Shown: in pieces, positions 1 through 12,939 of the stretch
Layout of the letters: each line of letters opens with the position of its first letter
How positions within the stretch are numbered: the stretch's first letter is position 1
Source: Erythrobacter sp.
GTDB lineage: Bacteria; Pseudomonadota; Alphaproteobacteria; Sphingomonadales; Sphingomonadaceae
Assembly (NCBI GenBank): GCA_002695185.1
Contig: NZOF01000121.1
Coordinates: 1 to 12,939 of the forward strand
Direction: 5' to 3'
DNA length: 12,939 nucleotides
The notes under the pieces: generated by a model
Databases searched by the model: none
Told to the model about the DNA's origin: nothing
What the model saw: the letters and a program-made list of their open reading frames with translations, nothing else
Position numbers and translations under genes: made by a program

Positions 1-222
1 GTCGATGATTTCCAGGTAGGCATGGAATGCCTCAAGGACAAAACAGCGTGGACATCCGGCGACTGGGAACTCGGCGACGAAGTTCGGCGCTGGAACTCGC
101 TGCAAAATGTCAATCGCGACGTCGCGCTACTCAAGCACTATCTCGTCGGCATCCTCAAGGCCGATCTCAGACAAAAGCGGCGAGCAGCACCCGCTCCACT
201 CTTCGAAGACGCAGCTGAATAG
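1..222 (+). CDS. 3' end of an unidentified gene (5' truncated by window edge)
   Basis: The frame is open from base 1 to a TAG at 220-222 and gives about 73 C-terminal residues. The ATG at 22 is probably internal, because the codons before it are open and read as ordinary protein (VDDFQVG). The fragment is hydrophilic and aromatic-rich (SGDWELGDEVRRWNSLQNVN), then turns basic (KADLRQKRRA) and ends in an acidic tail. I see no motif that identifies it. The stop lies two bases before the GTG of queE, so the gene is almost certainly the operon partner immediately upstream of preQ0 synthesis. By context it could be a 7-deazaguanine-using protein such as a DpdA-type transglycosylase, but nothing in these 73 residues proves that. 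It could equally be another defence gene. Confidence 0.7.
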   Translation, partial: VDDFQVGMECLKDKTAWTSGDWELGDEVRRWNSLQNVNRDVALLKHYLVGILKADLRQKRRAAPAPLFEDAAE

Positions 223-224
223 TC

Positions 225-857
225 GTGGCTTATGCGGTCAAAGAGATATTCAAGACCTTGCAGGGTGAAGGCGCTCATGCTGGGCGCACGGCTGTTTTCT
301 GCCGTTTCTCGGGCTGCAATCTTTGGTCGGGTCGCGAACAGGACCGAGCGAGCGCGCAATGCACCTTTTGCGACACCGACTTCGTGGGTGTGGATGGGAC
401 CTGTGGGGGCCGTTTCGCGGACGCGGAATTGCTGGCACAAACAATCGCTGATGAATGGGCTGGCTCGAATGAGAGTCGCTATGTTGTGCTCACAGGTGGT
501 GAACCGTTGCTGCAGGTCGATGCGCCTTTGGTAGATGCACTTCATCGACACGGTTTTGAAATCGGGGTCGAGACCAATGGCACGCGTCCTGCCCCAGAAG
601 GCATCGATTGGATCTGCGTTAGCCCCAAAGGGGAAAACGAACTTGTCTTGCGTTCGGGCAACGAACTGAAGCTCGTGTTCCCGCAGGCAGGCGCGCCACC
701 TGAACGCTTCGAAGACCTCGAGTTCGAGCACTTCTTCTTGCAGCCAATGGATTGCGCCGAGGCCGGCCAATGCCTCGATGACACGATCCATTACTGCCTC
801 GAAAATCCTCACTGGCGCCTATCGCTCCAGTCGCACAAGCTAGTCGGAATCCGCTGA
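225..857 (+). CDS. queE: 7-carboxy-7-deazaguanine synthase QueE (radical SAM)
   Basis: QueE converts 6-carboxy-5,6,7,8-tetrahydropterin to 7-carboxy-7-deazaguanine in the cytoplasm, using S-adenosylmethionine, a 4Fe-4S cluster and Mg2+. The protein has 210 residues, a normal length. The N-terminus VKEIFKTLQGEGAHAGR is the family signature. The cluster cysteines are C31, C46 and C49, spaced CX14CX2C, the expanded spacing of many QueE proteins in place of the classical CX3CX2C. The radical-SAM GGEP motif is at 91-94, ETNGT at 116-120, SPK at 133-135, and the C-terminus LSLQSHKLVGIR is typical. The start is a GTG two bases after the upstream stop. No later start keeps the conserved N-terminus, and the ribosome binding site is weak, so translation is probably coupled to the gene before. 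The stop overlaps the queD ATG by one base (TGATG). Identification is firm. Confidence 0.96.
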   Translation: MAYAVKEIFKTLQGEGAHAGRTAVFCRFSGCNLWSGREQDRASAQCTFCDTDFVGVDGTCGGRFADAELLAQTIADEWAGSNESRYVVLTGGEPLLQVDAPLVDALHRHGFEIGVETNGTRPAPEGIDWICVSPKGENELVLRSGNELKLVFPQAGAPPERFEDLEFEHFFLQPMDCAEAGQCLDDTIHYCLENPHWRLSLQSHKLVGIR

Positions 858-1231
858 TGTACGAACTCTCAAAGCAATTTCGCTTCGATGCGGCCCACAC
901 GCTCGATCGTATTGTTCAGACTGAATCCAGCCGGAGAATTCATGGGCACAGCTATAGGGGCGAAGTCACCCTAAGGGGCAGGCCTGATCCGGAAAGCGGA
1001 ATGATTGTCGATGTGGGCATTCTGGAACGCGAACTGGAAAGTGTTCGCGACGCGCTCGACCATCGCTTTCTCGATGACATCAACGACCTTGGTCCAGCTA
1101 CGATGGAGAACCTTTGCCGCTGGATCTGGGAGCGTCTGAAGCCCAGCTTTCCTGCGCTGACGAAAGTGAGTGTCTATCGCGATAGCAACAGCGATGCATG
1201 CTCCTACTGGGGGGAAGAAGAACTCGCATGA
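857..1231 (+). CDS. queD: 6-carboxytetrahydropterin synthase QueD / PTPS-family protein
   Basis: This is a small PTPS-fold enzyme of 124 residues, expected to turn 7,8-dihydroneopterin triphosphate into 6-carboxytetrahydropterin, the substrate of QueE. The zinc-binding histidines are clear: H14 in FRFDAAH, and H29 and H31 in IHGHSY. D68-H69 in LDHRFLDD match the catalytic Asp-His pair, and the WIWERLKP segment is typical. Two expected residues are missing. The nucleophilic Cys, four residues before the first His of HGH in E. coli QueD (C27), is Ser25 here. The pterin-anchoring Glu near the C-terminus aligns with Asp109 in [11 protein letters not shown]. Nearby E23 might substitute, as Glu does in some PTPS subfamilies. 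I recall similar SRRIHGH forms in other alphaproteobacteria but could not check this. Position between queE and queC makes the QueD role very likely. It overlaps both neighbours, by 1 bp and by 4 bp. Confidence 0.88.
1209..1220 (+). promoter_or_regulatory. Ribosome binding site of queC
   Basis: A purine run of six G followed by AAGAAG ends seven bases before the ATG at 1228. It supports that ATG as the queC start over the in-frame ATG at 1198, which lies upstream of this site inside queD and would add ten non-conserved residues. Confidence 0.7.
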
Positions 1232-1941
1232 TCGCAGACGAGAAAGCCCTAGTCCTATTCTCGGGCGGACAGGATTCTGCAACGTGCTTGGCATGGGCTT
1301 TGGAGAACTTCGCATCGGTGGAGACGATCGGGTTTGACTATGGCCAGAGGCACAGGGTCGAACTCGAATGCCGCGAGGAATTTCTCGCCAAAGTCGTCGA
1401 CATCAAACCGGACTGGAAGGGCAAACTTGGCGCGGATCATATGCTCGATCTGTCGATCCTTGGGCAGATTAGCGATACCGCTCTGACGCGCGGAGCAGAA
1501 ATAGCATTGCGCGAAGACGGCCTGCCCAACACTTTTGTCCCTGGCCGCAACCTTCTGTTTTTCACGCTTGCGGCAGCGCTCGCCTCACGTCGTCAGGCGC
1601 GACACCTCATCGGAGGAATGTGCGAGACCGACTTTTCCGGGTACCCGGACTGTCGCGATGACACGCTCAAATCGCTTCAGGTCACCCTCAATCTCGGGAT
1701 GAACACTCGAGCTGTGCTATGTACGCCGCTTATGTGGCTCGATAAGGCGCAGACTTGGGCTATGGCCAAGCAACTTGGGGGCGCTCAGCTAATTGAGCTT
1801 ATCCGGACATCGACACATACCTGCTATCTCGGCGTTCACGATCTGCTTCATAATTGGGGGTATGGTTGCGGAACCTGCCCTTCCTGCGAATTGCGGATTA
1901 AGGGATGGGAAGGGTTCGATGCATCGCGCCGCGATGCGTGA
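1228..1941 (+). CDS. queC: 7-cyano-7-deazaguanine (preQ0) synthase QueC
   Basis: QueC converts 7-carboxy-7-deazaguanine to preQ0 with ATP and ammonia, the last step of preQ0 synthesis. The protein has 237 residues, a usual length. The PP-loop SGGQDS is at 12-17 and DYGQRH at 37-42. PGRN at 105-108 and GYPDCR at 138-143 are family motifs. The structural zinc ligands are C199, C214, C217 and C220 (CGTCPSC near the C-terminus). All key residues are present, so this looks like a working QueC and not the divergent QueC-like protein (QatC) of the Qat defence system. The ATG lies inside the queD stop (ATGA) behind a strong ribosome binding site. The preQ0 could feed tRNA queuosine or, given the downstream genes, a 7-deazaguanine DNA modification. 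No folE (GTP cyclohydrolase) is in the window, so the starting pterin must come from elsewhere. Confidence 0.96.
1919..1939 (+). other. GC-rich RNA hairpin at the 3' end of queC
   Basis: GCATCGC at 1921-1927 and GCGATGC at 1931-1937 are perfect inverted repeats around a 3-base loop. A G-U pair and an A-U pair extend the stem to nine pairs (1919-1927 with 1931-1939). It covers the last queC codons up to the first base of the stop. No T-run follows, so this is not a standard intrinsic terminator. It could act as an attenuator, a 3'-end stabiliser or a processing point between the queEDC block and the nuclease-helicase genes. A weaker 5-bp hairpin (CGCCG at 1965-1969, CGGCG at 1976-1980) lies in the same gap. 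The pairing is seen directly; any role is inferred. Confidence 0.45.
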
Positions 1942-1981
1942 CGTAGTGGCAGAGCGGACTAGGACGCCGATGGTCCGGCGC

Positions 1982-1988
1982 AGGGGAG
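1982..1988 (+). promoter_or_regulatory. Ribosome binding site of the nuclease gene
   Basis: AGGGGAG ends four bases before the ATG at 1993. It is a strong site and fixes that start, independent of translation from queC. The 51-bp gap is the only real spacer in the operon, and no clear promoter is visible in it. Confidence 0.65.
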
Positions 1989-1992
1989 AATT

Positions 1993-4251
1993 ATGGCGTC
2001 GGGTCTGAGTGCGTCCACGGTCAAATCTTGGTTTCAGTATCGCTGCGAACGCAAGACGCGTTATGACATGATGACGCGCGCAGAACGCGACAGCGCCACC
2101 ATCGTCAAGGAAGAGAGCGGCGCCGCCTGGGCTCTTGAAGGAAACAAGTTCGAGGAGCGTGTACTCGCCAGGCTCAGCGCAAAGGAGCCTTTGTTAGGAC
2201 CTGGTCCAAACGAAGATCGGTTGGGCCAGGCAGAAACGATCGCCTTTCTCCGAGGCCAAACGAAGCAAAAGGCTGCTACCCAACTCGGTCTCGAACAAGG
2301 ACCATCGTTTCGCGCCGCGCTTGCTCTGCCCGATCATCTGCAGATCAATCGATCCTACACCGACATCGTGTTTCGCGAGACGACACCTAATGGCGTCGTC
2401 TTTCGCATCGTCGATATCAAGGCGACACGCAATTCCACGCCCTTCCACAAGGCACAGGTCGCATTCTACGCGCTGTTGCTTCGAGGCATGCTCGCCGATC
2501 TCGGGATCGACGCAAGTGTCGATGCGACCGGTGCCGTCTGGCATATACGGGCGGGAAGCCGCGTGGCCGAGGGACTTGTTGAGCCAGCGACTTTCCCGCT
2601 CAAGCCCTATTTGAGATTGGTTGAGGAGTTCCTGAAGCGCGATGCACCGCGTATCGCTAGGAGAAAGGTCCTCGCAAACTTCGATGAGACCTTCTTCCAT
2701 ATCTACTTCAAATGTGAGCAGTGTGATTATCTCGCCCATTGTCGCAAAGCTATCGAGCATCCGAACCCCGCCGAAAACGATGTGTCCGCGGTCCCCGGCG
2801 TTTCACACGAAGGCAAGCTAGCGCTGCAGGCGCGCGGCCTGAAGACGGTCGGGCTGCTCGCGGGTTCGGCTGGGATTGGCACCACTGGGCCGACGAGTTG
2901 GTCATTGCAGCGTCGGAGCGACACCATCATCGCTCGCGCCGGCGCGATTACGGCCAATAACGTGCGCCGCCTCCCAGACGTGATGAGCTATCTCATGCCG
3001 CCACGCATCGACCGTGCGTTCTACCTTCTCGCCGATCATGACGCCGTGGAAGATAACCTCGTCTCCGTCGCCTACATGCGGCGCGGCGGAACACCCCGAT
3101 CGGTCATTCGCGTTATCGACAAGAGCAGCCCGGATGCCGAACGGCAAGCACTGCTCGACGTGTTCGTCGCGCTCATCGCCGATCTTGGCGAGATCGATGC
3201 CCACAACGAAGCTGCCGCCCCTGATCAGCAACTCCAGGCCCACATCTTCATCTATGAGCCCGCCGAAGCGCGCGCGATACAAGCGGCGATCGGTAGGCAT
3301 CTGAACGATCCTCAGATCCGAACCGGTTTGCTCCACGCCGTTCGGTTGTTTCCGCCGGAGGATGTAGTGCCCGAGCCCGAATTCAAGGGCGCGCACCACC
3401 TTCCCGCCACAGCAATCCGATCTGTCATAGAGCAGCTATATGCGTTGCCGGCGTTGGTCTCGTATGACCTTCGGCAAGTCTCGGAGGCACTTCAGGCCGC
3501 CGGGCAGATCGATGCAGCTTATACGCCGGTTGGCACATTTCGACGAGACTTCTCGTCCTTGCTTGCAATGGAAGTCATTCGCTCGCTTCGCGAGGGGCTC
3601 CGCGATGCGGTCTCCCACGCCCAAGTGGAGGCAGATGTCAGGGCGAGGCTGGAAGCGGCAGCGCGACTCGTTGAGTGGCTGACCAGCCAGAACGCGGCAT
3701 CGCAGCCACCATTTTTGCGGCTCGAAAAACAACCTTTCCGATTCCAATCTACTCTCAACCCTCTGAATGCCGGCGATCTTGATCTTCTTCACGCATACGA
3801 ACTGCTGGATTCGCGTAGCGCCTTGCTGGAAACACTTGTGCGCCTCGCCCAACCTGCTCGCGTGCGCCAGCAACGCGGAGAGTGTCTCGCCGGTCTGACG
3901 CTCGAAAGCGAGGGCAGACATCCGAATGGACGCCGCTGGCTTCGCTTCTCAATTCCGCCAGAGAGCCGCGATGCCGAAATCTCACCTGACGACATTGGCC
4001 TCATCCTGACCGACGACAATCCCGACCTACGTCTCAACCCCGCAAACTGGCGTCCATTGGAGATCCGATTCAACTATGGGGATTATGGATCGCTCTTCGT
4101 GAACATGTCGGCGCGCCAATATGATTCGTCGATCATGGCTAGCCTTCGCCGCCAAACCGGACCGAAGGGATGGTGCATCGACAAGACCCACCGGGACATC
4201 AATGGCCCGCGAGTCCAAAACTTTCTCCTTCAACTCGGCGGCCAGCCATGA
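1993..4251 (+). CDS. Cas4/RecB-like PD-(D/E)XK nuclease with HhH and RNase H-like regions (TM0106-type)
   Basis: This is a 752-residue predicted DNA nuclease. Residues 1-255 form a RecB/Cas4-type PD-(D/E)XK domain: E54/E55 in the first helix, D124 (SYTDIVF), D141-I-K143 (the DXK catalytic pair) and Q155 to Y159 in AQVAFYALLL. C18 (YRCER) with C241, C244 and C250 (KCEQCDYLAHC) match the one-plus-three cysteine layout of the 4Fe-4S cluster in Cas4 and AddB. A helix-hairpin-helix-like stretch follows at about 265-290 (AVPGVSHEGKLALQARGL). Residues about 340-500 resemble the RNase H-like part of TM0106-family proteins (IFIYEPAEARAIQAAIGRH), but its first acidic strand is degenerate, so it may be inactive. 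The last 180 residues are beta-rich and unassigned. The ATG of the helicase gene overlaps this stop by 4 bp. In TM0106-type proteins known to me, this nuclease part is often joined to a UPF1-like helicase, which here is the next gene. They probably form one complex. Confidence 0.85.
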   Translation: MASGLSASTVKSWFQYRCERKTRYDMMTRAERDSATIVKEESGAAWALEGNKFEERVLARLSAKEPLLGPGPNEDRLGQAETIAFLRGQTKQKAATQLGLEQGPSFRAALALPDHLQINRSYTDIVFRETTPNGVVFRIVDIKATRNSTPFHKAQVAFYALLLRGMLADLGIDASVDATGAVWHIRAGSRVAEGLVEPATFPLKPYLRLVEEFLKRDAPRIARRKVLANFDETFFHIYFKCEQCDYLAHCRKAIEHPNPAENDVSAVPGVSHEGKLALQARGLKTVGLLAGSAGIGTTGPTSWSLQRRSDTIIARAGAITANNVRRLPDVMSYLMPPRIDRAFYLLADHDAVEDNLVSVAYMRRGGTPRSVIRVIDKSSPDAERQALLDVFVALIADLGEIDAHNEAAAPDQQLQAHIFIYEPAEARAIQAAIGRHLNDPQIRTGLLHAVRLFPPEDVVPEPEFKGAHHLPATAIRSVIEQLYALPALVSYDLRQVSEALQAAGQIDAAYTPVGTFRRDFSSLLAMEVIRSLREGLRDAVSHAQVEADVRARLEAAARLVEWLTSQNAASQPPFLRLEKQPFRFQSTLNPLNAGDLDLLHAYELLDSRSALLETLVRLAQPARVRQQRGECLAGLTLESEGRHPNGRRWLRFSIPPESRDAEISPDDIGLILTDDNPDLRLNPANWRPLEIRFNYGDYGSLFVNMSARQYDSSIMASLRRQTGPKGWCIDKTHRDINGPRVQNFLLQLGGQP

Positions 4252-7200
4252 GCGCTCAGGAAATCCTGCGCTTCCTGCGCGATCCACTCGATTTCGCGGA
4301 TGATCCGGTCGATGCCGATATCTGGGACGCAGGTTTCAGCGACGTTGCACAGCCCCTCACCGAAGCCGCGAACATACCCTTGCGCCGGGCGCAAATTGAT
4401 GCCTGGCATGGGCTCGCTCACGCTCGCGCCGGGCTGATTCTTGGTCCGCCCGGAACCGGCAAAACCCACGCGCTCGCCTGGATGGCTGCGGGGTACCTTG
4501 AAGCGCGGCGGCGGGCAGGCTTGCCCTGCCGGATCCTCGTCTCCGCCTTCACCCGCAACGCCATCATCAATCTCATTGAGGCAATCGCTGTGCGGTGCCA
4601 GCAACTCGACGTCCCTCCCCGAATTGCCTTTGTTGGTCGCGAACCGTCTAGTCCGCTTGCACCCGGCGTCGAGCATCTCGACGTCGATGATGCTGCGGCT
4701 CTTCTCACCGAAGACTATGCCGTCGCTGGAATGACGGTGTGGGGCCTCAACCGGCTCATCGATGCGCAAGGCGGATTTACCGGTGCTTTCTTCCACCTGA
4801 CCTGCGTCGATGAAGCTTCGCAGATGGTGTTGAGCCATGGCCTGATGGCTATTGCCGGTATGGCAGAAAATGGTCGTATCCTGGTCGCGGGCGACAACAA
4901 GCAGCTTCCACCGATCAGGGTTGAACATGAACATGATGTCGACGGCCGTCGGCTCGGATCATCGCTCTACGCCTTCCTTCAAGCGGCCGGCGTTCCGGAA
5001 TTTCCGTTCGACGAGACGTTCCGGCTGAACGAACCGCTCACGCGCTTTCCCCGCGATCGCTTCTATGAGAACCGCTACCAGAGCGTTGTCCCCGAGCGGT
5101 GCCTCCCCCTGATTGAGGACTGGGAACAAGGGCTCGATGATTGGGAGCGAGTGGCGCTCGACCCTGAGTATCCGATCTGCGTTCTGATCCATGACGGTCC
5201 GCCAACCGGATCATCCAACCCGTTCGAAGCGACGGTCGCGGCTAGGCTCGGACGCCTGTTGTTCCGCCGACTGCCGCCGACTAAGGATGGCGCGGACGAT
5301 GCCGAGAAATGGCAGCATCGCCTCGCGATTGTCAGCCCACATCGCGCGCAGAACGCGCTGATCCGCAACATGCTTGCCCAAGGGCCGGAAGGCGCGGGCG
5401 CAGTGGTTGAGACCGTCGACCGCATCCAGGGCCGCGAGCGGGATGCGATGGTCGTGAGCTACACCGTCGCCGACCCCGAGTTCGCACTGGCGGAAGCGGA
5501 GTTCATCTTCAGTCCCGAGCGTCTCAATGTCACCGTGACGCGTGCGCGCGGCAAGCTCATCCTGATCATTTCGCGGCGATTGCTTGAAGTCGTGCCGTCC
5601 GACGAGGAGTTGGTCGACAAGGCCGAGACCCTGCGCGAATTCATCTTCCGCGCCAAATATGCAGACAGCGTCAAGCTGTCCGCGCCCGATCACGGCCAGG
5701 TCAACGTCGATGTCTGCGTCCTTCCATTCAGCGACGAGGCGCCGCTGCCGCAGATCGCCGCGCCCGCGCGGCCGGTGCGAGACGACCTTGCTGACCTCAC
5801 GCCCGGGCACCTGCGGATCCTTGAAGAAATCCGCAAAATGGCTGGCGTCAACAAGTGGGGCACTGTTCCCGACTACACGCTTGCCAGGGCAATGCGCAGC
5901 GACGCCAAAAGGATATTCCCTGATCTGCGACTGCTGCAGCGACACGGCCATATCGCGTTGGAGCACGTCCAAGGCACGCCGCCCTTTTGGAGCATCACGC
6001 CGCTCACCAATCAACGGGCACTTTATTCGCTCGATACAGACGAGTTGGTCGACCGGGTCGAGGAAGCGATCATGCTCGCCGGGGCCGGCCGGCGAGGTGC
6101 CCTGTATCGTCGGGTTCGCGACGCTTTCGACTGGCTAGGTGCAGACGGCGAGGACCAGTTCAAGCCCGTGCTTGACGGTCTCGAGGCGGACAAGGTCGTC
6201 CAATATGAGATGATCAACAACCGGCTCTATGTCGCGCGGGTCCGAACCGAGCCGGCGGACGCCCGCGACCTGGCCGAGGCGCTCGGCGAAGACCTTCAGC
6301 CGGCAGACTATATCCTCCTCAATCACCTCGAAGACCATGAGGCCCGACGGATCAACTTCGGCGTTTTCGAAGAGTGGCATGCCCCGATGGATCTCGCGCG
6401 CGGGCTTGGCGCCAGCCTCTCGGAGGTCGCGGAGTCGCTCCGCCGCCTGAGCCTCCACGGGCACGTGCTCATTGCGGAAGAGGGACGTGTTCGCAGCCGA
6501 ATGGCGGAAATGGCGCGCGCCGTCCGCTATTCAAAACAGCGCTTCCATAAGGACGATGCCGGTGATCGACCGTATCTCGTCCGCGGCCTGAAGGTTGAAT
6601 TGCGCAACAGGGAAAAGCCGGCTTATGAAAGCCCGCTGCGTGATGCCGTTGCGGCCGTCGAAGCGAAGCATGGGCAAGGCAGCGAGCCCACCGCAGCGTT
6701 CGGGATGGTGGCCGAAATGCTGCGGCGTGCCTGGAACGCACCCTCGCCGAACCTCGCCGGCTTCCAGGATCGGGCGTTTACCGCGATATTCGACGCCTGG
6801 GTTGGGTCTGGCGACGAACGCTTCGTCATCGCGGCTGACACAGGCTCGGGAAAGACCGAGGCAGCCTGCCTGCCCATCATCGCTGGCGCGACACTGGACC
6901 TGCTTCGCTCCATCGGCGGCACGCGGGCGATCCTCGTTTATCCGCGCGTCAGGCTCGCCGCCAACCAGGCGCAGCGGCTAGCCCGTTATTTGGCGGCGCT
7001 CCGGAACGTGGATGGAGCACCCCGTCTCACATTGGGTTTGCAAAACGGTGCCGTTCCAGAAGGCTGGCATTATGCGGACCCGGAGACGTGGGAGCCGACC
7101 GGCCGCACCGGCGAATATCATTTTCCTTTCTTCATGTGCCCCGAGCCCGCCTGCGGCGCTCCGCTCGCCATTGCCGCTGGGATAAACGGTGCGCCTGACA

Positions 7201-10200
7201 CGCTCCAATGCAAGGGCTGCGGCTGGGAGTTCGATGGTTGGATCGGGACCAAGCAAGCCCTGCGAGCGACACCTCCGACGTTGTTCCTGCCCACGACGGA
7301 GTCGCTCCACCAGTGGCTGAACGATAGCCGCTATGGTGCCCTCTTTGGCGATGGCGGGTCCGGACCGCGCTGCATCCTCGCCGACGAGATTCACCTCTAT
7401 ACGCACATCCAAGGCGCGCAGATCGGATATGGGCTGCGCCGTCTCCTTGGCCGATGCGCTTTGAACGGCGATGCGCCCATCGCTGTCGGCATGAGCGCGA
7501 CGTTGGGCCGGCCCGCTCATGTTTGGCACCAGCTCGTTGGTGGCTCGGAGCCCCTGCTGATCGAGCCGCTTCCTGCCGAACGAAAGCCAAATCCCAAGGG
7601 GCGGGAATATTTCTACTTCGTCCAACCAGAGGTCGAGTCGCGCAATCGTGACGTGGCCGGCGCATCGACAACGATCCAGGCCGCCATGGCGCTCGCCCAC
7701 AACATGCATCGCCGGCATGGCAGCGAAGGAGGGTTTCGCGGTATCGTCTTTGTCGATTCGATCGACAAGCTGAAGCGGCTCCATGGCAATTACATGGATG
7801 CCGAAGTAGGCCAGAGCCTCGCCAGCCTCCGCACCAGGATCTACCCGGACCACCCCGCGACCGGTCTCCCACGGCGCGCCTGTTGCGGTGATCCGCTCGG
7901 ATGCGACCTGTTCCGTGATGGCGAGTGCTGGACGTTCGCGGCCACCGATCAGAGGCAATGGACCGCGCGTGGCCCGTACATCCCGGGCAATCCGCTCAGT
8001 GTCGCCCGCTTTCCCGTTTACTCGGGGAGTAGCGCTCGCATCGAAACAGAAATCCAGCGGAGCGATCTGGTCTTTTCAACAGCGTCGCTCGAGGTTGGGT
8101 ATGACGATCCGGACATGGCGTTCGTCTACCAGCATTATGCTCCCTCGAACCTCGCCAGCTTCGTTCAACCCAAAGGCCGCGGCGGTCGCGGCAATGATGA
8201 TCGTCCGGTCACTGGCATCACGCTTTCGATCTACTCGGCTCGGGACTCCTGGTACTATCGCCGTCCAACCGCACTCCTGGACAGCCGCGGTTTCGAAGTT
8301 CCCTTGAACCTCTCAAACCCGATCGTGTCGCGCGGCCAACTCGCAACGCTGCTCCTAGATCTCATCGCGCGGCGTGAGGTTTTACGCCTGCCCGCAATCG
8401 GGAGCGGGGGCCACCCATCGGGCGAGATCGTTTCGGAGTTCAGCGAGGCCTGTTCACGCCTGTTCGATGACGATCCCTTTACTCGGCTGGGCTATGCCGA
8501 CGCCGAAGCGTTCATCCGAGACATCACGTCCAAATTCGGCACCTTTCCTACCGATGAGCATGCCAGGACCAGACGTGCCCGGATCGAATGGGTGCCACGG
8601 ACTCTGTTCGGGGCTGCGGATCTGCCGAGTGTCGACATCCGAGTCCCCATTCATGGCGGCGACCCGATCATCAAGAGCGAGGATATTTCGCTGGGCCTTG
8701 GCGCGGCAGCGCCAGGCAATGCGACCCGCCGGTGGGGCAGCATTGAGGTTCATTGGCGGGCGCCCAAGCTCGGGCGCGCTCCCTATCTCAACGCGCAGGA
8801 AGAGGCTCTCGCCGAACGGATCGATCTTGGCAGTGCAGTTGAACTCCTCGCCAACTTGCCAATCGAGGCGCGCGAAGATCTCGGGGATGCTCCAATCTCG
8901 CCGACGATCCTGCGTCCCACGAACTTGGGCACGGACCTTATCGGCCTGGTTCGCGGTGGCGGCTGGACGCCGCTTATCGAATGGGATGCCCAGAACTGGG
9001 CCGCCAAGCCGATCCCGGAGAATGTCGATCCGGCGGCGGCGCTCGACATGCGCAGCACAGGTTCGCTCCGTGGCTTTCCAACCCTGCGCTTCGACAGGGA
9101 GGGCATGCCTGCCGATATTGGCGACATGCGCCCTATTCTTTCCGGGTTCGAGACCTATGTGGGCAGCGCGACGAGCAGCCCCGGCCTTCACCTGTCGCGT
9201 ATCTATTGGGGGGCGGATGCTGAGGTCAGGATTGTCGAACAGGCCGACCCGATCGGAGTCTCCCAGACGTTCACGGACGCGACCGGCGAGACATCGCAGT
9301 TCATAGGCTACACGATGGAGAGCGAAGGTGTCCGCTTCGCTCTTCGCTCAGACCGCATTGACGCGTTCCTCGATGCGGAAATGTCCAGGCTCGCCGGCGA
9401 CTCTGCTGATCAGCGATGGCACCGCAATCAGATGCTGCGCTACATCGTACAGCGGCGGGCTCGAAACGCGGGGATCAATGGGTACGAAGCCCGACGCGCC
9501 GCTGAACTGGTAGTTGCTGCTGCCGATAGTCCCGCCCTGTGCGGCGACCTCGCGAAGTTGCTCAAGATGTGGAGCGACACGGCCCTCGGCGATCTATTCA
9601 AGCGCACCTACCATGAAGCGCTCTCGAGCCATCCGCTGCTGAGCGAGCGCCGGATCGATCGACTCATTGGAACGCTCGCCGGCACCCGCTTTAACGAATT
9701 GCTCCGCCATATCATGGAAGCGCAGAAGTCCGATGACCATCTTCGTGCATTTCTGCGCAGCCAGTTGGTCCATAGTTTGGCCGTGCGCCTTCGCCAAAGC
9801 TTCGTGCTGCACGGCCGGGGCGAGGAGCGGCGCGTGGTCGCGCATGTGAAGCTACCGGTGCAGTTCGGTAACCGCTCGGAGGACGTGATCACGATCGCTG
9901 AGAATGGTGTCGGTGGCGACGGCACGACCAGGACGTTCATCGAGCAGGCGCATGACGCGTTTGGTGACTTTATGAGCGGCTTCGCCGACACTTGCCCCAA
10001 CGCCGCTGAAGACCAGTTGGTAGAAGCGGCCCATCAGGCCTACGTTCACCATGAGCATTGGCGTGCGCTCGATCCTCGGCGCCCCGAGACGCTGGACGCG
10101 ATCGGCGGCGATCTCGGCATCGACTTTCATGTCGCTGGTCCGCCGTCGCCCCAGCAACTTCTCCGCCTGCTCTATGCCAATGAAGCGATCGGTGGCCAAC

Positions 10201-10574
10201 AAGTCGCACTGTATGACATCTGGCAAGAGGTGATGGCGGCAAAGGGAGCGCTGAAATCCCTCATCGGACGAGAGCCCGATGGGTGGGAGATCGTCAGCGC
10301 GGCCTCCAAAGGTGCTCTCGACGGGACCTATCCCACGCTGGCAACGATGCTGAGCGCGTATTCACAAATTGAAGGGGCGGCGCAGGACGGCAGCCTCTCC
10401 CCAGGCGAACGGCTGGCCGATCAGATCTACCGCGTCAGCGGCAGGCTTTGCTTCGACGGCTGCCTGGCCTGTCTCCACGGAGACAGCGACCTCATGCCGT
10501 CGACCCTTGCGGAGGCTGCGGTAAGCCGCCGACTGCTGACGCGCTTCATGGAATCATGTCGCGCCATGGGCTGA
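4248..10574 (+). CDS. Giant dual helicase: UPF1/DNA2-type SF1 plus DpdJ/DrmA-like SF2
   Basis: This is a 2108-residue protein with two complete motors. The ATG at 4248 (MSAQEILRFL) overlaps the nuclease stop as ATGA; the upstream in-frame start at 4170 lies inside the nuclease gene and is unlikely. Residues about 45-470 are an SF1 UPF1/DNA2-like helicase: Walker A GPPGTGKT (66-73), VDEASQ (187-192), GDNKQLPP (215-222), IQGRERD (393-399) and NVTVTRARGK (427-436). Residues about 515-755 read as three winged-helix-like repeats. Residues about 820-1340 are an SF2 motor: DTGSGKTE (864-871), DEIH (1046-1049), SAT (1083-1085), STASLEVGYDDP (1277-1288) and QPKGRGGR (1307-1314). A zinc ribbon is inserted in it (C964, C969, C988, C991), with more cysteines at C1212, C1213, C1219 and C1227. 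The C-terminus has CX3CX2C (C2068, C2072, C2075), like DUF1998-type helicases. The SF2 part most resembles DpdJ or DrmA from memory. A role as the translocating part of a restriction complex with the nuclease is inferred. Confidence 0.88.
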   Translation: MSAQEILRFLRDPLDFADDPVDADIWDAGFSDVAQPLTEAANIPLRRAQIDAWHGLAHARAGLILGPPGTGKTHALAWMAAGYLEARRRAGLPCRILVSAFTRNAIINLIEAIAVRCQQLDVPPRIAFVGREPSSPLAPGVEHLDVDDAAALLTEDYAVAGMTVWGLNRLIDAQGGFTGAFFHLTCVDEASQMVLSHGLMAIAGMAENGRILVAGDNKQLPPIRVEHEHDVDGRRLGSSLYAFLQAAGVPEFPFDETFRLNEPLTRFPRDRFYENRYQSVVPERCLPLIEDWEQGLDDWERVALDPEYPICVLIHDGPPTGSSNPFEATVAARLGRLLFRRLPPTKDGADDAEKWQHRLAIVSPHRAQNALIRNMLAQGPEGAGAVVETVDRIQGRERDAMVVSYTVADPEFALAEAEFIFSPERLNVTVTRARGKLILIISRRLLEVVPSDEELVDKAETLREFIFRAKYADSVKLSAPDHGQVNVDVCVLPFSDEAPLPQIAAPARPVRDDLADLTPGHLRILEEIRKMAGVNKWGTVPDYTLARAMRSDAKRIFPDLRLLQRHGHIALEHVQGTPPFWSITPLTNQRALYSLDTDELVDRVEEAIMLAGAGRRGALYRRVRDAFDWLGADGEDQFKPVLDGLEADKVVQYEMINNRLYVARVRTEPADARDLAEALGEDLQPADYILLNHLEDHEARRINFGVFEEWHAPMDLARGLGASLSEVAESLRRLSLHGHVLIAEEGRVRSRMAEMARAVRYSKQRFHKDDAGDRPYLVRGLKVELRNREKPAYESPLRDAVAAVEAKHGQGSEPTAAFGMVAEMLRRAWNAPSPNLAGFQDRAFTAIFDAWVGSGDERFVIAADTGSGKTEAACLPIIAGATLDLLRSIGGTRAILVYPRVRLAANQAQRLARYLAALRNVDGAPRLTLGLQNGAVPEGWHYADPETWEPTGRTGEYHFPFFMCPEPACGAPLAIAAGINGAPDTLQCKGCGWEFDGWIGTKQALRATPPTLFLPTTESLHQWLNDSRYGALFGDGGSGPRCILADEIHLYTHIQGAQIGYGLRRLLGRCALNGDAPIAVGMSATLGRPAHVWHQLVGGSEPLLIEPLPAERKPNPKGREYFYFVQPEVESRNRDVAGASTTIQAAMALAHNMHRRHGSEGGFRGIVFVDSIDKLKRLHGNYMDAEVGQSLASLRTRIYPDHPATGLPRRACCGDPLGCDLFRDGECWTFAATDQRQWTARGPYIPGNPLSVARFPVYSGSSARIETEIQRSDLVFSTASLEVGYDDPDMAFVYQHYAPSNLASFVQPKGRGGRGNDDRPVTGITLSIYSARDSWYYRRPTALLDSRGFEVPLNLSNPIVSRGQLATLLLDLIARREVLRLPAIGSGGHPSGEIVSEFSEACSRLFDDDPFTRLGYADAEAFIRDITSKFGTFPTDEHARTRRARIEWVPRTLFGAADLPSVDIRVPIHGGDPIIKSEDISLGLGAAAPGNATRRWGSIEVHWRAPKLGRAPYLNAQEEALAERIDLGSAVELLANLPIEAREDLGDAPISPTILRPTNLGTDLIGLVRGGGWTPLIEWDAQNWAAKPIPENVDPAAALDMRSTGSLRGFPTLRFDREGMPADIGDMRPILSGFETYVGSATSSPGLHLSRIYWGADAEVRIVEQADPIGVSQTFTDATGETSQFIGYTMESEGVRFALRSDRIDAFLDAEMSRLAGDSADQRWHRNQMLRYIVQRRARNAGINGYEARRAAELVVAAADSPALCGDLAKLLKMWSDTALGDLFKRTYHEALSSHPLLSERRIDRLIGTLAGTRFNELLRHIMEAQKSDDHLRAFLRSQLVHSLAVRLRQSFVLHGRGEERRVVAHVKLPVQFGNRSEDVITIAENGVGGDGTTRTFIEQAHDAFGDFMSGFADTCPNAAEDQLVEAAHQAYVHHEHWRALDPRRPETLDAIGGDLGIDFHVAGPPSPQQLLRLLYANEAIGGQQVALYDIWQEVMAAKGALKSLIGREPDGWEIVSAASKGALDGTYPTLATMLSAYSQIEGAAQDGSLSPGERLADQIYRVSGRLCFDGCLACLHGDSDLMPSTLAEAAVSRRLLTRFMESCRAMG
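10469..10486. repeat. 18-bp inverted repeat near the end of the helicase gene
   Basis: CTGTCTCC at 10469-10476 and GGAGACAG at 10479-10486 are perfect 8-base arms around AC. It lies within the codons after the last zinc cysteines of the helicase and about 70 bases past the stop of the minus-strand gene. As RNA it could form a hairpin ending the minus-strand message, but no T-run follows on either strand. The coding constraint may explain it by chance. Confidence 0.4.
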
Positions 10575-11282
10575 CACCGTGAACAGGGCCAAGGCGTCAT
10601 GATCTCGGATCCAGCCGAGTATCTCGTCCGTCAGGTCTGACAATCGCACCGGCCGAGCAGCGACAGCCACAAGGAATGCCGCGATCGGCGGAGCCACGCC
10701 GACCGCAAGCAGTCGATCGTTCAACGCGGATGCTTCCGCCACGAGCGTGTCGCGCTCCTTCACCCGATCAGCAGGCGGGCGGCTCGCATCTTCGAGCTTC
10801 TGGGCACGGGCTGCCAACTTCAGTAGGTCGCTGCCGAGTGCCTCGACACCAGGAATATTGGCCAGCACTTCGCCCAGTGCCGCCTGTCCCCCGAGGGCAT
10901 CCTGGGCCGCCTTCCGCCACACGCCTTCGATGCCTCTCTCGATCTTCTCCATCTCGAAGGGAAGTCGGGTCAGGCCGATCTGGTTGATAGCGTCCAACTG
11001 TTCGATTGTGGGCTCACCCGCGAGAATGCGGCTCATCCTCACAATCTCGCCGAGCGACGCGCCGATTTCGGATCGCACGGCTTCAAAATCCGCATTGGCC
11101 GCTTTGACCAGCGTGGCCAAGCCTTCGAGCAGAGCGGGAAGGCCATCCAGCCGCTCTGCTGACGCGGTCGCCTTCTGGAGCGCGGTTCCGAGTCTGGCAC
11201 GCTCTTTCGCTTTGTCGATCTTGGGCAATAGCTCGATCAATTCGTCGAGTGGAGCGAGCGTGGTGTCGGCTACATCATCCAT
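10554..11282 (-). CDS. Helical protein of unknown function, second gene of convergent operon
   Basis: This is a 242-residue protein I do not recognise. It is almost entirely predicted helix, acidic and rich in Ala, Leu and Glu, with heptad-like stretches at about 12-75 (LDELIELLPKIDKAKERARL) and 150-185 (LLKLAARAQKLEDASRPPAD). It has no cysteines, no nucleotide-binding loop and no signal peptide. The stretch at about 200-215 (VAPPIAAFLVAVAARPV) is hydrophobic but short for a membrane segment. The C-terminus LSDLTDEILGWIRDHD looks like a small folded motif. The ATG at 11282 overlaps the stop of the gene before it (TAATG) behind a good ribosome binding site, so the two proteins are translationally coupled and probably form a complex. 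The 3' end overlaps the giant helicase gene tail to tail by 21 bp. It may be an accessory subunit of the same system. Confidence 0.82.
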   Translation of the reverse strand: MDDVADTTLAPLDELIELLPKIDKAKERARLGTALQKATASAERLDGLPALLEGLATLVKAANADFEAVRSEIGASLGEIVRMSRILAGEPTIEQLDAINQIGLTRLPFEMEKIERGIEGVWRKAAQDALGGQAALGEVLANIPGVEALGSDLLKLAARAQKLEDASRPPADRVKERDTLVAEASALNDRLLAVGVAPPIAAFLVAVAARPVRLSDLTDEILGWIRDHDALALFTVSAHGAT

Positions 11283-12939
11283 TACGCGACCTCATCAAAC
11301 GTGGTCTGCAGCGCTTCCGCCGCGGCCGCTAATCGCTCGCCAAAGCTCTGTACGACCGAGAGATCGCCGGCGCTCTTATTGCCCTCGACGAAGGCACGGG
11401 CGTATTTATAGGCTGCGTCAACCGCGAGTTCGGCTTTCTCCAGCGTCTCCAAGGCAAGCCGCAAGGATGCTATCGGAACCCCAAGCGTGTGCGCCAACTT
11501 CTCAGCCTCTCCTTGGAAACCAACGTCGTCCGAGAGCAGATAGTCCGCCAGTCGCTCCCACGCAGGATCAGCCTCGTTCAACAACCCCGCATTCGCGGCA
11601 CGAGCCCGTGCCGTTGAATATTCCTGATATTGTACGGGCGCGGCCTGGACGAACGCCGAGACGGTCCGCGTCATTGCATCGTCGACCTTCGCCAGATGAT
11701 GGCTGAAGCTCGATTGCCGAAGCAGAGCCAGGGCACGCTCCTTGCGCTGCGATAGGCTCTTGTTCTCGCGCTCCGGAATGTGCCGCAATTGGCCATCGGT
11801 TTGACAGGCAAGTTCAACAAGCTTGCCGATTTCCTCAAGCCCCTTGGAGAACTCCGGCTTGGCGGGAACCGGCACGGTCCGCATCGTGTCGCGAAGGCTT
11901 TTCATCGCTGCCGCGACCGCTCCCGCGTTCATCAGCGGAGCACCGCTACCAAGCGGGAGGTTCAACGATTGCCTCAGCATACCGCGAAGCTTGTCGTGCC
12001 AGTAGCTCGTCGCCTTGACCAACTCGCCCCACGACTCGACCCGATCATCCGGAAGGCTTTTCGCCTCCTGCTCCTCCGAGAGCAGTTCCTGGAACTGCTC
12101 CTCCAGCGGAGAATCTGGTGAGATCGCGCCGCGAAGCCAGGCTCGCGCCAGCAACACCTGAACTGTCGCTCCATCGATCGACCATGGGTCGTCCTGAGCC
12201 AAGCGACGCTCCAACTGCGCCGATGCGAGTTCGGCCAGACGTCGCAGCAATCTCGCAATCGCGCGGCGATTGCTCTCCAGTTGCAGCGGCTGGAGGGCAG
12301 TGCCCAACCGATTGGTGATGTAGGCTTCGATCCCGCGGGTCGCCCAATCTTCACGTGGAATGACAAAGTGCCGAATGTCGGTTCTGCCTGACCCTTCCAG
12401 CTTCACATTGTCCTTGGTAAAGACGCGTTCCCAAAGACCGAACTGAGGCTCAGGAAGCAGTTCCCGCGCCTCGTTCATAAGGTCGATGAGCAGGATCTCC
12501 CAGGCACTCGGATCGCTGATCGGCTTCCCGTCACGCCAGAGCAGCGCTTGCTCCGCGAGTGCTTTGAGGCGCGTCATTGAGACAGTTGGACTTGTCGGCG
12601 ACGACCTTCCGCCAGGCGAACTCGACCTTCCAGAAGTTGTCGAAGTCAGGGGATTGATAGGCGCGGGTGTTGATGGAGCCGGGGCACCCGGAGTGGGGCC
12701 TGCGGGCATCTCCGGCTCCGGCACCTCTGAGGCCGACCCGCCCGACTGCATAGCCACAGCAGGCGACGAAGTTCCAGCCGAGTCCAGGCCCTCGCCGAGC
12801 CAAGGGAGCCGGAAAGCCTCGAAGACGCCGTCCGCTACGCCCGAGACGGAGCGCGTACCCTCGGCCGTTACGCCGACGTGAACTTCGCTCGTGCGATCGC
12901 CCCAGAGCATCATGAGTCGGCGCAATTGCTCCCGCCGAC
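11282..12939 (-). CDS. C-terminal part (over 547 residues) of an unidentified protein, 5' truncated by window edge
   Basis: The frame is open from the right edge of the window to a TAA at 11284-11282. The TTG at 12925 could serve as a start, but the codons before it remain open (RREQ) and read as protein, so the gene most likely continues outside the window. Residue numbers here count from that TTG. Residues 1-48 (RRLMMLWGDRTSEVHVGVT and on) look like the end of a folded domain. Residues about 50-118 are a disordered linker rich in Ser, Pro, Gly, Ala and Thr. From about 119 to the end the protein is helical, with WEILLIDLMNEARELLPEP at about 143-161 and many Arg/Glu-rich helices, and no Walker motif. 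I do not recognise it. The layout suggests a large multidomain protein, perhaps with an ATPase beyond the edge, whose helical tail works with the coupled 242-residue protein. A link to DpdG, DpdH or DpdI is possible but untested. Confidence 0.75.
   Translation of the reverse strand, partial: RREQLRRLMMLWGDRTSEVHVGVTAEGTRSVSGVADGVFEAFRLPWLGEGLDSAGTSSPAVAMQSGGSASEVPEPEMPAGPTPGAPAPSTPAPINPLTSTTSGRSSSPGGRSSPTSPTVSMTRLKALAEQALLWRDGKPISDPSAWEILLIDLMNEARELLPEPQFGLWERVFTKDNVKLEGSGRTDIRHFVIPREDWATRGIEAYITNRLGTALQPLQLESNRRAIARLLRRLAELASAQLERRLAQDDPWSIDGATVQVLLARAWLRGAISPDSPLEEQFQELLSEEQEAKSLPDDRVESWGELVKATSYWHDKLRGMLRQSLNLPLGSGAPLMNAGAVAAAMKSLRDTMRTVPVPAKPEFSKGLEEIGKLVELACQTDGQLRHIPERENKSLSQRKERALALLRQSSFSHHLAKVDDAMTRTVSAFVQAAPVQYQEYSTARARAANAGLLNEADPAWERLADYLLSDDVGFQGEAEKLAHTLGVPIASLRLALETLEKAELAVDAAYKYARAFVEGNKSAGDLSVVQSFGERLAAAAEALQTTFDEVA
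11289..11296 (-). promoter_or_regulatory. Ribosome binding site of the 242-residue protein gene
   Basis: Read on the minus strand, GATGAGGT ends six bases before the ATG at 11282. It lies within the last codons of the upstream gene, consistent with coupling through the TAATG overlap. Confidence 0.55.

Follow-up and report, generated by a model that had tools for sequence, protein, structure and literature searches.

A candidate Dpd modification-restriction island in Erythrobacter with a DNA2-like nuclease-helicase in place of DpdK and DpdD

The DNA studied here, called the window, is a stretch of 12,939 nucleotides from Erythrobacter sp. (GenBank assembly GCA_002695185.1, contig NZOF01000121.1), which the original prediction, made from the sequence alone, described as a candidate deazaguanine modification-restriction island of unusual composition. 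This description is supported by the Dpd genes of the window and by a restriction engine that appears to be swapped. Sequence comparison makes it probable that the window belongs to a Dpd modification-restriction island whose effector has been substituted, with a DNA2-like nuclease-helicase in the place of DpdK and DpdD. Across the related islands the gene content, the gene order and the catalytic residues are kept, the nuclease is constantly paired with a fused DpdJ, and DpdK and DpdD are missing. The proteins of the island would form a complex, recognise the missing mark and degrade unmarked DNA.

The nuclease and the fused DpdJ of the window

The PADLOC models for DpdB, DpdJ and DpdH identify three genes of the window and NCBIfam concurs, therefore the island type is Dpd. 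The partial first gene matched the end of two DpdB models, PDLC02811 (4.9e-15) and NF041060 (3.6e-11), along some 50-60 positions, and the last gene matched the DpdH models PDLC02884 (155 bits) and NF041065 (42 bits). NCBIfam agrees on the gene names, with DpdJ and both partial genes scoring under the equivalog cut-offs.

Residues 1-255 of the nuclease hold the RecB motifs (E54, D124, D141-x-K143, Q155-Y159) and the four conserved cysteines (C18, C241, C244, C250) of the iron-staple nucleases Cas4, AddB and DNA2, and residues 337-580 have a DnaQ/DEDD-like exonuclease fold. The protein scored 26.5 bits against PDDEXK_1 (cut-off 22), and only Cas4 models were returned by the PADLOC scan, at 11-12 bits. 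It had been predicted to be a TM0106-type nuclease; it is a RecB-type nuclease that scored 27.8 bits against TIGR03491, well under the cut-off of 97.45 for the TM0106 family. The sole Foldseek match below 1e-3 was DNA2 (5e-4), with low TM-scores of 0.20 and 0.15, and AddAB ranked third. No DNA2 or AddAB chain was among the 50 matches listed by VIA, and the nuclease profile found no match among PDB sequences at an E-value of 0.1. The nuclease had no match in PHROGs, and the viral contigs of IMG/VR yielded one short, partial nuclease locus (L039), so that there is little sign of it being a phage gene.

The downstream protein joins an SF1 and an SF2 motor, and the motifs looked at are intact in both; those of SF2 are ADTGSGKT, ADEIH, SATL and QPKGRGGR. 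K72 of DpdJ is the Walker lysine of SF1, and K869 is the residue whose loss would inactivate SF2. The PADLOC model of this protein, PDLC02895, spans almost all of it (residues 30-2128 of 2134 in P0006), and the NCBIfam model NF041067 gave 326 bits over 6318..8375, under its cut-off of 800. With the structure model of the SF1 part, coronavirus nsp13, IGHMBP2 and Upf1 rank above DNA2.

A complete queE-queD-queC block had been predicted to share one operon with a Cas4-like nuclease and a 2108-residue double helicase, and all of these genes were found as claimed (Table 1). The five predicted junctions are also exact: a 2-bp gap between dpdB (stop at 222) and queE (start at 225), a 1-bp overlap in which queE and queD have base 857 in common, a 4-bp overlap between the end of queD at 1231 and the queC ATG at 1228 (the list of open reading frames uses the upstream ATG at 1198), a 51-bp gap from the end of queC at 1941 to the nuclease start at 1993, and a 4-bp overlap, ATGA, between the DpdJ ATG at 4248 and the nuclease stop at 4251. 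The window begins inside dpdB and DpdA lies outside it, and the caution that the modifying enzyme is unproven in the window was thus justified.

Table 1. Features of the window, with positions in nucleotides
Feature	Position	Strand	Evidence and remarks
dpdB, C-terminal part (DGQHR/ParB-like)	1..222	+	last 73 codons, cut by the left window end
queE	225..857	+	TIGR04508 352 bits (cut-off 240); Cx14CxxC motif present
queD-type 6-carboxytetrahydropterin synthase	857..1231	+	PF01242 113 bits; SxxxHGH (Ser for the signature Cys)
queC, preQ0 synthase	1228..1941	+	TIGR00364 203 bits (cut-off 150); SGGQDS
Nuclease, 752 aa	1993..4251	+	Cas4/AddB/DNA2-type domain, then DnaQ/DEDD-like domain
DpdJ fused to SF1B helicase, 2108 aa	4248..10574	+	PADLOC DpdJ PDLC02895 1806 bits
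SF1B (Upf1/DNA2-like) helicase domain	4248..5717	+	~residues 1-490 of DpdJ
N-terminal DpdJ region and SF2 (YprA-like) helicase core	6318..8375	+	~residues 691-1376
dpdI-like gene, 242 aa	10554..11282	-	convergent with DpdJ, 21-bp overlap
dpdH, C-terminal part	11282..12939	-	C-terminal half, open at the right window end

The window genes are under purifying selection, with dN/dS values of 0.045-0.15 against two close relatives and about 0.05 for the nuclease and the SF1 part; queD was saturated against L007 and gave no estimate. The same gene order is found again in islands with nucleases of no more than 41-48% identity. Because of this selection and of the recurrence in diverged islands, the arrangement is not due to chance.

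Homologous islands

A profile of 26 nucleases retrieved 33 loci from GTDB genomes in addition to the partial IMG/VR locus, and four full-length plasmid copies and one 'phage' record found through DpdJ were added. Motifs were compared in 36 nucleases, which form 30 clusters at 90% identity and include near-copies (L001/L006 and L021/L028/L022); the broken, fragmentary or contig-end sequences of L034, L036, L037 and L038 were left out. L034 is an island split into many short reading frames, through either degeneration or sequencing errors, and in Devosia sp. ZB163 (L037, 9974-11827) a second, broken nuclease copy adjoins a DpdH fragment on another scaffold. Gene content was counted in 33 islands, made up of the 28 GTDB loci with further stretches and L001-L005, whose open reading frames were labelled by phmmer with canonical and variant references. 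Three islands (L006, L011, L022) were completed from a second contig of their genome. Absence in this count means absence from the stretches seen, and the right ends of L008, L009 and L022 were unseen.

The original prediction had named as counter-evidence an island lacking DpdA and a nuclease-helicase pair that normally lacks queE, queD and queC; neither occurred. DpdA, DpdB, DpdJ, DpdH and the DpdI-like protein are each encoded in 33/33 islands, and queC, queD and queE in 31, 29 and 28 of the 33, respectively (queC is missing from L026 and L029). DpdC, DpdG and DpdF are each present in 31 islands. DpdC is missing from L002 and L011, whose fetched stretches end short of it; DpdG and DpdF are both missing from L009, where the contig ends, and from L022, whose right side was not fetched. 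Genome-wide, DpdA scored over its cut-off in 29 of the 32 nuclease-carrying genomes and lay in pieces in one. Among 385 genomes of the class it exceeded the cut-off only in the centre genome, with weak matches in 76 more, and it is therefore too rare in this class-wide sample to estimate how often Dpd islands carry DpdK as against the nuclease.

The common gene order is dpdC-dpdB-dpdA-dpdB-queE-queD-queC-nuclease-DpdJ, followed by convergent dpdI-H-G-F and sometimes E, and in several islands the modification block is inverted or lies beyond DpdF. The gene hyp0 upstream of dpdB is DpdC (PADLOC 396 bits in L007). In L002, DpdB scored 354 bits (cut-off 300), and DpdH and DpdF scored 1025 and 695 bits with PADLOC and 285 and 433 bits with NCBIfam, the latter under the cut-offs. 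DpdG and DpdI of L002 matched weakly (PADLOC 17.7 and 12.2 bits; NCBIfam 45.7 and 23.5 bits against cut-offs of 80 and 150), and their places in the operon agree. Many dpd modification operons also hold a pair composed of a protein X (weak PycTM match, 27 bits) and a HAD-family hydrolase; of 40 nuclease loci, 10 hold X and 11 the hydrolase (e.g. L042 24678-26367, L014-L016, L021, L030, L033).

A 4-bp overlap of the nuclease and DpdJ genes is kept in 30 of 35 loci (L034 was left out of this count). In a protein from Chloroflexota the nuclease and helicase halves are joined in one chain, as judged by E-values for a set of 19 proteins. The fused DpdJs form one group in the DpdJ tree (100/99), in which two non-fused rows, L078 and L079, sit on long branches. 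A Bradyrhizobium plasmid (L080, 5226-11952) encodes a 1416-aa protein whose C-terminal SF1 domain is related to that of DpdJ; it adjoins a DNA methyltransferase and an antiphage dGTPase, which recalls Bad beside its methyltransferase.

DpdK and DpdD were labelled in 0/33 islands by phmmer with references from two or three islands. Genome-wide models are a stronger test: among the 32 nuclease-carrying genomes the DpdD model had no match at E<=1e-3, and the DpdK model had none over the cut-off and weaker matches in six. Three canonical plasmids served as positive controls, in which the best DpdD scores were 290-630 bits (over the cut-off in two, 290 bits in the third) and DpdK scored 182-199 bits, and neither model matched in four nuclease plasmids. 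The DpdK model detects even the divergent PLD genes of L076 and L077 (24-29 bits) and also matches in 3 of 14 control genomes. Five of its six weak matches scored 21-28 bits; four of them are on a contig other than that of DpdA, and the fifth (G007), being at 76 kb of its contig, is outside the 8.1-kb contig that carries the nuclease. The remaining match, at 71 bits, is in a metagenome-assembled genome of Planctomycetia with two DpdE over the cut-off, which may hold a second island. In the plasmid collection, the five records with DpdK (one query) and the four with a complete nuclease had none in common.

DpdE exceeded its cut-off in one of the 32 genomes and scored 333-384 bits in four others. 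Because weak DpdE matches occur in the rest and in 14/14 controls, only these five strong ones were read as DpdE. The pattern HxKx4D misses most DpdK/PLD references and is therefore a poor test; its matches in L034 and L069 were rejected as antisense to island genes, and an unlabelled open reading frame with this motif lies ~12 kb beyond DpdF in L066. On a Bradyrhizobium plasmid (L041, 14082-17679, minus strand), a dpd modification cluster has beside it two divergent genes, one for a 398-aa PD-(D/E)XK nuclease and one for a DEAD/DEAH helicase, and a PLD-like gene ~11 kb beyond it. L041 was not among the tblastn matches of the window nuclease and may hold yet another effector set.

Proposed mechanism and alternative readings

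In the mechanism that we propose, QueE, QueD and QueC would make preQ0 together with an assumed host FolE, DpdA and DpdB would swap guanine in DNA for preQ0, and DpdC would convert this preQ0 to dADG. Incoming DNA would be inspected by DpdF, DpdG, the P-loop ATPase DpdH, DpdI and DpdJ. The N-terminal SF1B motor of DpdJ would cooperate with the iron-sulphur nuclease encoded upstream, the two being in effect a split DNA2/Bad enzyme. Unmarked DNA would be opened by the YprA-like and RecQ-like motors, the SF1B motor would feed single strand into the Cas4-like endonuclease, leading to degradation, and the DnaQ-like domain may trim 3' ends. By analogy, the RecQ-like DpdF recalls the teamwork of DNA2 with RecQ helicases.

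There is a small but appreciable chance that the nuclease and the SF1 domain are instead a repair or resection module that keeps modified host DNA replicable, with other island proteins carrying out restriction. DNA2 and Bad are described as flap- or resection-type enzymes, and DpdF is like the RecQ helicases with which eukaryotic DNA2 works (PMC7430649). However, the SF1 part is fused to DpdJ, and in the gap-free island L007+L047 of a close relative (Sphingomonas sp. IC-56) a PLD gene beyond DpdE is the only further nuclease gene recognised. In addition, L043 holds a modification cluster (dpdB-dpdA-dpdB-queEDC) around which, for ~20 kb on either side, no gene carries a Dpd restriction label or annotation, and the mark is therefore not always in need of such a module.

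We consider it unlikely that the nuclease and DpdJ work as an antiphage helicase-nuclease of their own, blind to the mark, and simply share the island with a modification cluster. YprA-family helicases do serve in ARMADA and Druantia, which are described without deazaguanine genes in the available text of PMC12458937, and the closest relatives of the window differ between its two halves. DpdA was unmatched in two of the nuclease-carrying genomes (G007, G031), which would suit a mark-blind pair, but in both the contig with the nuclease is short (8.1 and 5.7 kb), so assembly gaps may be behind its absence, and dpdA is in all of the islands that were read with further stretches.

The difference between the two halves shows as a mosaic. 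Over bases 1 to ~850 the window has 94-98% identity to an Altererythrobacter island (L021; L028 from Erythrobacter is similar), the nuclease of which is only 45% identical; from about base 2000 its identity to the Sphingomonas island L007 is 83-95%. In between, DNA identity is 67-83% to L021 and 68-84% to L007, and the window QueD is closest to L021 (93.5%) and QueC to L007 (81.9%). This pattern argues against an assembly artefact with just two parents; a more complex one may lie behind the mosaic. The comparisons suggest that modification and restriction cassettes recombine, which would be expected of parts that communicate through the DNA mark.

Megablast of the window against plasmids gave no match. 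A phage origin was rejected, as the viral contigs gave only the partial locus and the 'Bacteriophage sp.' label of MT835580 (L001) is doubtful, the scores of its island being equal to those of Sphingomonas parapaucimobilis (L006). ArdC, S26 peptidase and DUF3363 genes lie upstream of the L001 island (5121-11503), which suggests that MT835580 is a conjugative element and not a phage.

It is very improbable that this is an ordinary canonical Dpd island in which the nuclease is an accessory and nothing has been replaced: PADLOC already calls the fused protein DpdJ, but DpdK and DpdD are in none of the 33 islands, and plasmid records with DpdK and with the complete nuclease never coincide.

Several observations weigh against a Dpd island with a substituted effector, the repair role of DNA2-like enzymes among them. 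The window itself lacks DpdA and has an incomplete DpdH, and DpdA is missing from the two genomes named above. The restriction half is well diverged, because the NCBIfam cut-offs are unmet for DpdJ of the window and for DpdF, DpdG, DpdH and DpdI of L002. The DpdI label rests on weak matches: the window protein had no Dpd family match of its own in the NCBIfam, PADLOC and domain scans, and it is tied by place and phmmer similarity to the homologue at the same place in L002, which matched NF041066 weakly (4.6e-5). DpdE is present in 4/33 islands, the two closest relatives among them, and 0.4 kb beyond the DpdE of L047, from the same genome as L007, lies a PLD-family gene (7415-8677, minus strand; PLDc_2 41.7 bits, DrmC-like PDLC02614 41 bits). 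The L007/L047 island may thus have a PLD nuclease; phmmer found no homologue of this gene in the other fetched stretches.

The last of these observations concerns QueD, whose signature is CxxxHGH (PMC5041015). In the window QueD a serine replaces the cysteine, the protein fits none of the PTPS-I, II and III motifs given in the available text of that paper, and it scored 81 bits against TIGR03367, under the QueD equivalog cut-off of 89.25. This serine type accounts for 17 of 31 QueDs from nuclease islands (16 by pattern, L058 by reading), next to 13 with cysteine and 1 with tyrosine, and of the 7 genomes tested 5 have no other match to the QueD model. Since it is often the sole QueD of a genome, it either works without the cysteine or the pathway is incomplete.

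Comparison with known systems

Canonical Dpd (dpdA-dpdK; here L040 from an Enterobacter plasmid, and S. Montevideo from the literature) shares DpdA, DpdB, DpdC, the preQ0 genes, DpdF, DpdH, DpdJ and probably DpdG and DpdI with the relatives of the window, and both kinds of island occur on plasmids and chromosomal contigs alike. In contrast to it, the variant has neither DpdK nor DpdD and seldom DpdE, its DpdJ has gained an SF1B helicase, and a Cas4/DNA2-like nuclease gene lies upstream. Canonical dpd is reported to restrict unmodified plasmid more than 1,000-fold, with the PLD protein DpdK taken to be the cutter (PMC5567051). The YprA preprint likewise assigns a PLD nuclease to Dpd and speaks of many uncharacterised Dpd-like classes (PMC12458937). 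GATOR-GC reports variable dpd content, and the word 'nuclease' is absent from its main text as available (PMC11888242).

The original prediction had placed a TM0106-type nuclease with a fused SF1-SF2 motor outside the known Dpd set. This needs correcting on two points: the fused protein fits the PADLOC DpdJ model, whose listing is silent on the SF1 part and the nuclease, and a paper of 2017 already refers, as data not shown, to Cas4-like nucleases that occur with a helicase in the vicinity of tgt genes (PMC5567051). What stands as new, as far as print tests it, is the consistent swap of DpdK and DpdD for a DNA2-like nuclease-helicase, which was not found in the literature searched, the main Dpd papers being outside its coverage.

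BRIGADE also combines Dpd-like genes with a YprA-type helicase, its PLD nuclease being occasionally replaced by a PD-(D/E)xK nuclease; unlike the present islands, it is confined to haloarchaea and usually has two YprA-like helicases, at least one of them ARMADA-like (PMC12458937). We rejected BRIGADE because the window has one YprA-like protein and the gap-free island L007+L047 one DpdJ; the PD-(D/E)XK protein of the haloarchaeal locus L079 had no match to the nuclease profile at an E-value of 10. Qat was rejected since no Qat protein appeared in the PADLOC scan of 8 window proteins (25 of 38 matches listed for DpdJ). The TM0106/TIGR03491 nuclease-helicases, such as L075, share the RecB nuclease domain and, with weaker similarity, the next domain, and L075 has its SF1 domain in the same protein.

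Islands that keep DpdF-J without DpdK and DpdD, with nucleases in as many as 30 clusters, show a conserved Dpd core and bear on the mechanism of Dpd restriction, which is unsettled in the literature searched. The replacement nuclease belongs to a type of known enzymology (DNA2/Bad), which makes the effector question open to point mutants. As here, Bad and eukaryotic DNA2 couple an iron-staple RecB-family nuclease to an SF1B helicase (PMC7430649). They do so in one chain, whereas the window has two, with the helicase fused to DpdJ and deazaguanine as the presumed mark. Bad is a 5'-3' motor and single-stranded DNA endonuclease that adjoins a DNA methyltransferase, and its authors raised the possibility that it belongs to a restriction enzyme (PMC7430649). 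We see even chances that the present islands form a second Dpd restriction class, in which deazaguanine-based discrimination of self from non-self would be coupled to a split DNA2-like nuclease-helicase and not to a PLD nuclease and the cassettes recombine separately, and that, together with Bad, they point to DNA2-type engines as general, exchangeable effectors for different DNA marks.

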